Both the position numbers and the translations under genes were made by a program. Below are positions 48,845 to 52,259 of a DNA stretch of 64,000 bases, piece after piece. The stretch's first letter is position 1. Every line of letters starts with the position of its first letter. The notes under the pieces are model-generated. The model saw only the letters and a program-made list of their open reading frames with translations, did no database searches and was not told the DNA's origin. Source of the stretch: Thermoanaerobaculia bacterium (GTDB lineage: Bacteria; Acidobacteriota; Thermoanaerobaculia; Thermoanaerobaculales; Sulfomarinibacteraceae); the NCBI GenBank assembly GCA_027061805.1, contig JAMOWA010000064.1, positions 1-64,000 on the forward strand, in the 5' to 3' direction.

Positions 48845-49525
48845 TCACACGACAGCACCTCCCAGCGTCACCATGTACCCCGAGAGCGACCCCGGCACGA
48901 ACCTGACGTTCAGCCGCTGGCCCGCATGGCGGACCTCCACCATGGCAGCATCGTCGCTCACCGTGTGGAAGCTCCGGCTCGCCCTGCGGAGGAGCCCGGA
49001 TCGCAGGAATCGCGAGACCTCGCCCAGGTGCTCCATGTGCTCCAGCAGCATCACCACGCGAAGCGGCCGGTCCAGGTTCGTGATCACCTCGAAGATGACC
49101 TCGTCGAACACGTCGGCCATCTCCTGGACCTCCAGTCCGGACATCTTCCAGAGGCCCAGCGGCTCCGTGGCCACCACCCGTGATCCTCTCCGGAGGGCGT
49201 CAGTCAGGATGCTCACCAGGCTCCGCCGCACATCGCCCGGCCGGCAGCTGGGGCTGAGGGAAAGATCGTGGACCACCGCCTGGTAGATCCACCGGGGACC
49301 CTCGTCCGGCGACCTCCACACCCGATACCGTCCCAGCGCCATGGGCAGCTCGGTGGCGGCGGTCTCCAGGGCCTCCTCCGAGTCGCGGACCTCCTCCAGG
49401 TCCAGCACGCTCGAGGGGCTCATCACGAGGTTCCGGTCCTCCTGAAGGATCAGGGCGTCCGGAACCAGCCGCGTCTCGAGGGCGTCCTTGAGGTCGAGAT
49501 CGAGGCGGAGCGTGGCGCGTTCCAC
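48845..49525 (-). CDS. Hypothetical protein (226 aa)
   Basis: ORF between the activator and AAA ATPase genes, same strand; TAGACT 6 nt before the GTG start. Confidence 0.7.
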   Translation of the reverse strand: MERATLRLDLDLKDALETRLVPDALILQEDRNLVMSPSSVLDLEEVRDSEEALETAATELPMALGRYRVWRSPDEGPRWIYQAVVHDLSLSPSCRPGDVRRSLVSILTDALRRGSRVVATEPLGLWKMSGLEVQEMADVFDEVIFEVITNLDRPLRVVMLLEHMEHLGEVSRFLRSGLLRRASRSFHTVSDDAAMVEVRHAGQRLNVRFVPGSLSGYMVTLGGAVV

Positions 49526-49567: not shown

Positions 49568-50734
49568 CTACCGTGCCGCGTCCAGGCCGAGCCGCCGCCG
49601 GACGAGATCCGCGCTGACCACCAGGCGGTACTGCCCCTCCCCGGTCTCCTCGAGCCCCTCGTACCGCCACGGGTCGAACTCCAGGCGGTTGATGATCTTC
49701 CCGAAGATCGTCCGCAGCGCCCTCGCCCCCGTCCGGGTGTGCTTCTCGGCCTTCTCCGCGATGAGCGAGGCGGCAAGGTCGTCGATCTCGAGGGAGATGT
49801 TGAGCACCTCGAAGTACCGGCGGGACCGCACGAACGGCGAGTCCACGGACCTGATCAGGATCTCCTTGAGAACCTCCACCGAGAGGTCCTGGAGCAACAC
49901 GATGTTGTCGAACCGGGCCAGGAACTGCGGGACCATCCCGTAGGTGAACAGGTCCTCGTCCCTGAGGAAGTCGCCCAGGGAGAACCGCTGCTCGATCCTG
50001 ACATCTCCGTCCGCAGTCCGGATGGCGTGGGACTTGAGCTTCTCGCCGCTCCCGGGCCTGGTCACCCGGAGGTACACCTGGTCGTAGAGCCCCTCGAAGG
50101 CACCACCGCAGATGAACATCATGCCCCTGGTGTCCACATCGAGCGTGATCTCGCGCTCCTCGCCGTCCACCACGGCGTGGGTCCGGTACGCGACCTTCTC
50201 CCCCTCCATGAGCGTCAGAAGCCCCTGCTGGAGCACCACCCCGATGGCGTTGGGTTTCCCGGCCACCACGGACGACATCTTGTCGACCTCGTCGATGCAG
50301 ACCGTGGCCCGCTCCATGGCGGCCTTCAGCTCCTCGGCCGTGGCCCGCGGACCGAGGATGGCCCGGGCCCGCTGCTCCGCCGCGGTGAGGAGGCGGTCGG
50401 GACGGAACTCCATGCGGTCCGAGTCCACCAGGAGGTTGGCGTTGATGATGGTCATGGCACGGAACGGTCGGTACTCGGGAACATCGTGGTAGAGCCGCTG
50501 GATGTTGTTCATGATGGTGGTCTTGCCGGTACCCGAGTTGCCGATGAGAAGCAGGTTGCCCGGCACCTTGCCGGTCACGTGCTTGAAGATCGCCACGGCC
50601 ACGAAGCGGAGCGCCGCGTCCTGTCCCAGGACACCCCGCCGGAGCTCCCCGAAGATCTCCTTCGGGGAGATCTCGGTCAGGGACCGGAGATCGCCATCGG
50701 TTCCGGAGTCCGGATCCACCGTGCTGTCCTTCAT
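49568..50734 (-). CDS. ClpX-like AAA+ ATPase lacking the N-terminal zinc-binding domain
   Basis: LLLIGNSGTGKTTIMNNI, ATVCIDEVDKM, IGVVLQQGLLTLMEGE, MVPQFLARFDNIVLL, GARALRTIFGKIINRLEFD. Confidence 0.85.
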   Translation of the reverse strand: MKDSTVDPDSGTDGDLRSLTEISPKEIFGELRRGVLGQDAALRFVAVAIFKHVTGKVPGNLLLIGNSGTGKTTIMNNIQRLYHDVPEYRPFRAMTIINANLLVDSDRMEFRPDRLLTAAEQRARAILGPRATAEELKAAMERATVCIDEVDKMSSVVAGKPNAIGVVLQQGLLTLMEGEKVAYRTHAVVDGEEREITLDVDTRGMMFICGGAFEGLYDQVYLRVTRPGSGEKLKSHAIRTADGDVRIEQRFSLGDFLRDEDLFTYGMVPQFLARFDNIVLLQDLSVEVLKEILIRSVDSPFVRSRRYFEVLNISLEIDDLAASLIAEKAEKHTRTGARALRTIFGKIINRLEFDPWRYEGLEETGEGQYRLVVSADLVRRRLGLDAAR

Positions 50735-50885
50735 GCTCGTTCCCCCATGCCCCGGACACCCCCGCTGGGTACCACGGTGACTCCATCGATGCTCACCGAT
50801 CGGCCGCACCCGGCCGGCCGGAGAGTGGTCCGACGGGAACCCCGCCCAGGTCTCCAGGCTCCAGGGGTCGATGGAGGCTCGAGCA

Positions 50886-52115
50886 TCAGCCGTTCTCCTT
50901 CCGGGGGACCGCCGTCGGGGCCGGGACGGGGGTTCCCACGGGCACCGGCGTTCCCGGAGCAGCCCTGAGGCGCACACCACCCGGCGGCGCCTGTACCGGG
51001 GTGTGCCTCACCGGCTCGATGGTCCTCCCGGGCCTCGCCCCGGACGGGAGCCGGCGTTCCACGATCATCCGGATCTCGACCTCCGGCGCCTTCGGTTCGT
51101 CGGTGCGCACCACGAGCTTCCCCCTGAGCGAGAGCGCAAGCTCCTTCGCGGCCGCCGTCCCGGTCACGCGGAGCGTGATGGTGTGCTGGGTGGCCTCCCT
51201 GTCGGGGTCGAACTCCACCTCCACGTCCCGGGGCAGGCTGTTCTCGATCCCCAGGATCCTGAAGGGCGTCCCCGTGGTGCTGGCGATCCGTACCATCCGG
51301 ACCGTGCCCGCGCCGCCCCTGGAGGGCAGGATCAGGTGGGCCTGCGGGGGGCTCACCTGGATCCGCGGCCGGACCCGGACCGACACCGGGATCTCGACGA
51401 CCGGCTCCTCGGGCACGTCGGTGGTGACCTCCACCACCGTCGCCCGCGAGGTCCCCCTGATGCGTTCCGCGGAGGTGATGACCAGCACCACATCCCCCCG
51501 GTCCACGGGGTACCCCGCGACCTGTCCCGGCGTGCCGACCTCCTCCCAGCGTGCCGTGAGCAGGCTCGGATCCCGCACCTTCAGTTTCTTCACCTGCAGG
51601 GGCTTCCCGTCCTTCCTGCGAAGCACGAGCCTCACCTCCGCCCTCTCACCCTCCACGACGCCGAGATAGGCCCTCCGCCGGGGGTACACCTTCACGGGCG
51701 CCTCCACGTCGGCCTGGAGCTTCAGGACGATGGTCCTGGCACCCGGGTCATCGGTCGTCACCCGGATGGTCTTGGAGATCTTCCCCTCCTGGGAGGCCCT
51801 GGTCCTGACCTTTGCAACGAGCTTTCCCGACCCACCTGCCGGGATCACCGAGTCGAACTCGGCGACCGTGCAGCCTCAGGAGGGTGCGGCGCGCAGGATC
51901 TTCACCTCCCTGTCGCCCGTGTTGCGGAACACGAAGGTTCCCTCCGCCACCTCGCCGGGCCTGATCTTCCCCACGTCGACCGTGGTGCTCTCGACCACGA
52001 GGATGGGTGCCGGCCTCTCCCTCTTCACCGGTCCGGCCGCAGCCGGGGGTGTCGGCACCGGAGTGGGTACCCCCACGGCCATACCTGCTGTCAGGACCAG
52101 GGATGTCAACATCAT
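50886..52115 (-). CDS. DUF1573-like secreted protein with in-frame TGA (candidate selenocysteine) at 51876-51878
   Basis: Track ORFs 51876..52241 and 50886..51848 are in the same frame, separated by TGA; joined reading VDVGKIRPGEVAEGTFVFRNTGDREVKILRAAPS-[TGA]-GCTVAEFDSVIPAGGSGKL matches the DUF1573 SCGCT pattern. Confidence 0.7.
51843..51867 (-). promoter_or_regulatory. SECIS-like hairpin 8 nt downstream of in-frame UGA
   Basis: GGUCGCCGAG-UUCGA-CUCGGUGAUC: 10 consecutive pairs including two G-U; lower CUGC/GCAG stem possible; UGA-to-loop distance 18 nt. Confidence 0.5.
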
Positions 52116-52259
52116 GATGCGCGTGCCTCCACTTCGATGTCTCTCGGATGCCCCGCCCCGGCCGTCGGCCCCGGAACGGTTCCGGCCGCCGATTGTAGCG
52201 CAACACTCCGATCGGGAGGATGCGCCTCCCCGGGTGGGCACGTCTTCCCGGACCCCGGG

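Follow-up and report, generated by a model that had tools for sequence, protein, structure and literature searches.

A DUF1573 protein with a predicted selenocysteine belongs to a sizeable Acidobacteriota branch of a known selenoprotein family

A DUF1573 protein carrying a UGC motif, OS_HP2, was reportedly listed as a selenoprotein in 2007 in a study of the Olavius symbiont. In the GOS survey of 2008, OS_HP2 (pfam07610) was represented by two Sec and 354 Cys forms (PMC2398784), and DUF1573/PF07610 with a UGC or UxC motif appears in published selenoprotein tables (PMC9312934; PMC13188914). The gene described here had been proposed in an earlier note to encode a new selenoprotein, a claim that does not hold at the family level since DUF1573 proteins with UGC/UxC already occur in published lists and are described by the NCBIfam model NF041425. 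Its host belongs to the GTDB family FEB-10, for which the name Ca. Sulfomarinibacteraceae has been proposed (class Thermoanaerobaculia; PMC8528874), and a literature search of partial coverage returned no report of DUF1573 selenoproteins in Acidobacteriota.

The protein resembles OS_HP2, as defined in the literature, in possessing PF07610 and a UGC motif with Sec predicted at the position of the first Cys, and 18/18 same-family members match NF041425 significantly. It differs in scoring 76.9 bits against this model, below the cut-off of 100, although NF041425 is still its best NCBIfam match. This cut-off is also missed by most of the TGA forms from Acidobacteriota that were scored, one that lies above it being L153 (127.3 bits), from which the clade of the protein studied here is separate, with no Cys member and with two covarying hairpins. 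Similarities are also found with DUF1573 proteins of the Cys type, namely the paralogue of the host (contig 59, 134606) and the orthologues of the sister family, which have the same domain and a similar length but read T-C-G-C-T, with Cys in place of Sec, have no hairpin element and fall in a separate clade.

The window, that is the whole stretch of 64,000 nucleotides that was analysed, carries the gene and its internal TGA as follows.

50886..52115, minus strand: complete CDS of 409 residues with one predicted Sec and a Pfam DUF1573 match, ending at the stop TGA 50886-50888
51876..51878, minus strand: in-frame TGA read as predicted selenocysteine 80 in a U-G-C motif, at a column kept in 18/18 same-family copies and in 24 further Acidobacteriota copies

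The sequence confirms the observation of the earlier note that the minus-strand frame running from 52115 to 50886 is interrupted only by the TGA at 51876-51878, and translation through it yields the expected product of 409 aa. A possible ribosome-binding GGAGG, read from the sequence, is located at 52126-52130, ca. 10 bases upstream of the ATG. The residues flanking the TGA are ...ILRAAPS-U-GCTVAEFDSVIPAGGSGKL..., and the stretch across residue 80 reads ...APS-U-GCTVAEFDSVIPAGGSGK. The match to DUF1573 (PF07610) spans residues 41-137 with 72 bits (4.3e-20), passing the Pfam gathering cut-off of 26.1, and the TGA therefore falls within the domain. Pfam and the alignment of relatives agree with the previous placement of the TGA: within the S-C-G-C-T motif of DUF1573 it takes the place of the first Cys, the motif reading S/T-C-G-C(-T) in the aligned relatives.

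Homologues have either Cys or TGA at this column, which the earlier note had proposed to inspect, and the TGA itself is conserved in relatives, in 18/18 same-family copies and in 42 copies phylum-wide. The gene was searched for in 60 related genomes, 20 of which, host included, belong to the same GTDB family. In this family, 18 of the 20 genomes (host included) have the gene with an internal TGA, and direct reading together with alignment A1 placed all 18 TGAs at one column, each followed by GC, a situation that is not due to chance. The two other genomes, which are 83% and 65% complete, were found to have the Cys paralogue only. A second DUF1573 match lacking this TGA occurs in 20/20 same-family genomes, host included; 19 of these are readable as Cys and cluster in a separate clade of the tree. 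Cys also occupies the TGA column in the sister family f2, and the Cys forms carry TGC or TGT at this position.

The search was extended to the phylum with 396 Acidobacteriota genomes, followed by direct reading of the DNA, and resulted in a set of 42 TGA genes from nine families. For several matches of other families, such reading was needed to tell whether the counted "TGA" was located at the motif; G022, for instance, has a Cys there (L146). In the tree, 36 of the 42 genes (families f1, f18, f38, f64, f73 and f83) form one branch without any Cys member (support 96/90), and those of f28 and f53 sit elsewhere on long branches; f24 (L161) was left out because its sequence is too short. The TGA-type DUF1573 genes of f28 and f53 (L155-L158 and L153) possibly correspond to independent gains of Sec, or may be very old.

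Purifying selection acts on the frame downstream of the TGA, as indicated by dN/dS, in line with the good coding sequence that had been noted past the TGA. Downstream dN/dS values range from 0.12 to 0.31 in six of seven same-family pairs and reach 0.67 in the most distant one (with G004), for which dS is ca. 0.9 and close to saturation. Over the 19 codons that follow the TGA, dS is only 0-0.43 and mostly well below that of the flanks, the exception being one close upstream pair. This low dS is as expected for an RNA element located within the coding region, and two hairpins were indeed detected there.

51844..51866, minus strand: SECIS-like hairpin 1, GUCGCCGAG-UUCGA-CUCGGUGAU, with its loop 17-18 nt after the UGA, an MFE of -13.7 kcal/mol and covariation
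51826..51843, minus strand: SECIS-like hairpin 2, CCCGGC-AGGUGG-GUCGGG, whose loop contains GGU, with an MFE of -9.0 kcal/mol and a covarying loop-closing pair

These hairpins occur in tandem directly after the TGA and correspond to columns 13-35 and 36-53 of alignment A3. In the 37 distinct sequences compared, 89% of the cells pair and changes on both sides are found in 50 cells versus a shuffled mean of 17; the covariation score was reached by 0/500 shuffles and was lost when the partners were slid. Stem 1 exists as CCGAG/CTCGG, CCGGG/CCCGG and CCTCG/CGAGG, and the pair closing loop 2 as C-G, U-A or G-C. When MFE was compared with that of synonymous shuffles, used as a control for the protein code, the mean folding z of TGA forms was -2.02 in the own family and -1.64 in the others, whereas Cys forms gave 0.05 (own-family paralogues), -0.21 (other Acidobacteriota) and 0.20 (distant forms). 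Likewise, hairpin 1 reaches -7.5 kcal/mol or lower in 36/38 TGA forms versus 0/47 Cys forms.

Comparison with the bSECIS limits quoted in PMC13188914 indicates that hairpin 1 fits them with the pair G21-C27 open, which gives a 7-nt loop starting with G, 8 bp and a distance of 17 nt from the UGA; with this pair closed it departs from the bSECIS G rule, and it is to this fully paired form that the value of -13.7 kcal/mol relates. The loop of hairpin 2 is located ca. 38 nt after the UGA, the usual range being 16-37, and neither hairpin alone, when fully paired, conforms to all bSECIS rules. An Rfam search of the locus returned nothing above chance, and the double-hairpin model run against the host genome found no strong second site, the Cys paralogue being matched weakly.

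The genes selA, selB, selC and selD, which the earlier note had named as the machinery to look for, are all present in the host genome (96.85% complete), each above its curated cut-off. The tRNA-Sec occurs on contig 60 (22229-22323; 78.3 bits), with the anticodon TCA according to ARAGORN, SelB on contig 59 (311.7 bits), SelA on contig 14 (476 bits) and SelD on contig 67 (372 bits). No in-frame stop is found in SelA, SelB or SelD of the host, indicating that TGA is not reassigned genome-wide and acts as a stop elsewhere. In the sister family f2, the SelD matches (G021-G027) contain one in-frame TGA in seven genomes, while none is found in G020 or in the own family; this suggests a Sec-type SelD in f2.

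Since the UGA and the RNA fold that follows it are retained in every relative having the gene, we conclude by calculation that UGA 51876-51878 encodes selenocysteine, with a probability of roughly 0.93; this reading of the locus as a U-G-C selenoprotein, already put forward in the earlier note, is backed by every computational test that was run, and the product is, very probably, a true selenoprotein that belongs to a sizeable new branch of a family already known. A recent nonsense mutation turning TGC into TGA in a Cys-type DUF1573 gene, or an assembly error, would involve a single base, and TGC or TGT is indeed what the Cys forms use at this column; yet 42 genes share this TGA, in genomes that come from many families and were assembled separately, selection downstream is intact and the RNA pairs covary, so that the chance of such an accident is negligible and independent conservation in 42 genes rules it out for practical purposes. 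A true TGA lesion elsewhere in the host genome looks different. It is located on contig 64 (115234-115431, minus strand; L210, L211, L212), outside the window, in the truncated N-terminus of a molybdopterin oxidoreductase, where the TGA stands at the third Fe4S4 Cys (CALCEAI-TGA-GLEI). None of the matched relatives has a stop in that stretch, and this fragment is therefore probably a pseudogene.

A pair of genes, the first encoding a short protein that stops at the TGA and the second starting independently at GTG 51848, from which an ORF of 320 aa is listed, is extremely improbable: the break would fall inside one DUF1573 domain (residues 41-137) that is modelled as a single confident beta fold by AlphaFold2, and the two halves are conserved together, as a unit. 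This split of one domain led us to reject the two-gene reading. Finally, a TGA in a conserved frame does not by itself name the residue, and the codon could be read as another amino acid through general recoding or a suppressor tRNA. We regard this as very unlikely, given that tRNA-Sec and SelA/B/D are present in the genome, that homologues have Cys at the column and that the structured element is restricted to TGA forms; general recoding in particular is rejected because in-frame TGA codons are absent from SelA, SelB and SelD and because the gene itself uses TGA as its stop. Under the selenocysteine reading, SelB would bind the hairpin element that immediately follows UGA 51876-51878 and bring Sec-tRNA-Sec to this codon, so that Sec80 would come to lie in the U-G-C turn of the DUF1573 domain, the first of the protein.

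The predicted architecture of the read-through protein is given below.

52032..52115, minus strand: predicted signal peptide and linker, residues 1-28, from a by-eye reading of same-family leaders
51705..52001, minus strand: Ig-like domain 1 (DUF1573/ASH), residues 39-137, with U80 and C82 (Pfam; AlphaFold2)
51369..51695, minus strand: Ig-like domain 2, residues 141-249 (AlphaFold2, pLDDT mostly >90)
51054..51362, minus strand: Ig-like domain 3, residues 252-354 (AlphaFold2)

AlphaFold2, run on alignment A1, produced a model with a pLDDT of 83.7 composed of three tandem Ig-like domains and of a tail of low confidence past residue 360. In this model U80 occupies a turn that joins two strands of domain 1, and the surroundings of the Sec do not adopt a thioredoxin fold, all three Ig-like domains being all-beta. 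A sequence search of the PDB returned no relative of the protein. Its fold resembles that of the HYDIN/ASH Ig-like domains of the central apparatus of cilia (PF22544, 5.6e-12), which also provide the top Foldseek matches; these proteins are however structural and belong to eukaryotic cilia, and whole-chain TM-scores are as low as 0.2-0.3, so that the likeness exists at the domain level only. By eye, same-family leaders are hydrophobic, with mostly basic n-regions and often with A-x-A ends, and the leader of the protein studied here predicts its export. Sec80 and Cys82 are the sole Sec/Cys residues of the read-through protein, and in 38/42 TGA forms the U and C of the UGC are likewise the only ones over the stretch compared.

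The product would thus be an exported selenoprotein built of three Ig-like domains, in which Sec80 and Cys82 may act as a self-contained selenol/thiol pair cycling via a selenenylsulfide or via a mixed bond with a client. Predicted export and an isolated U-G-C pair together point to extracytoplasmic redox or metal chemistry, and we would give about even odds to a redox site exposed in the periplasm or at the cell surface. The main functional rival, which we consider possible but rather unlikely, is a selenoprotein in which the U-G-C would serve as a ligand for a soft metal or metalloid (such as Hg, Cu or As) with no redox cycling. The UxC turn, as modelled on an Ig fold and not on a thioredoxin fold, would suit such a site, and no partner reductase was consistently adjacent in the loci examined; on the other hand, no metal-resistance genes were recognised among the neighbours scanned, and DUF1573 proteins retain the Cys pair throughout, with no other obvious ligands.

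Neighbouring genes vary among clades and give no functional clue to the selenoprotein. In its own subclade, an AAA ATPase gene is found downstream (49571-50785 in the window, minus strand) and is conserved in six loci, three of which then have a gene for a protein with no Pfam match (48848-49525 in the window, minus strand). In a second subclade of the family (L057-L066), genes for a LarA-like protein (lactate racemase family), a 4Fe-4S ferredoxin and a rhomboid protein recur immediately upstream, and cmk-S1 genes downstream, of the selenoprotein gene. The neighbours in f18 are HD-domain, ParA-like or thioredoxin genes.

What is new here is a large Sec-only Acidobacteriota clade that includes Ca. 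Sulfomarinibacteraceae (FEB-10), together with its two-hairpin element; the family being already known, the main advance is that a recognised selenoprotein now extends to a large group of bacteria. We tentatively propose, at somewhat less than even odds, an ancient Sec-obligate DUF1573 branch of the Acidobacteriota with an unusual tandem double-hairpin SECIS, in which both hairpins are selected and which would serve an exported redox protein of Ig fold, not of thioredoxin fold, alongside a Cys paralogue of the same genome. Standard gene calling splits these genes and the protein is therefore missed in uncultured Acidobacteriota of marine sediments, among which are kin of the sulfur-cycling Ca. 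Sulfomarinibacter. The locus provides a clear case of an Ig fold predicted to carry Sec and to be exported, and its double hairpin a compact test of SelB recognition in bacteria unlike E. coli. Overall, a family listed from two GOS sequences and a worm symbiont appears Sec-only and widely kept in Acidobacteriota, which makes its function worth testing.
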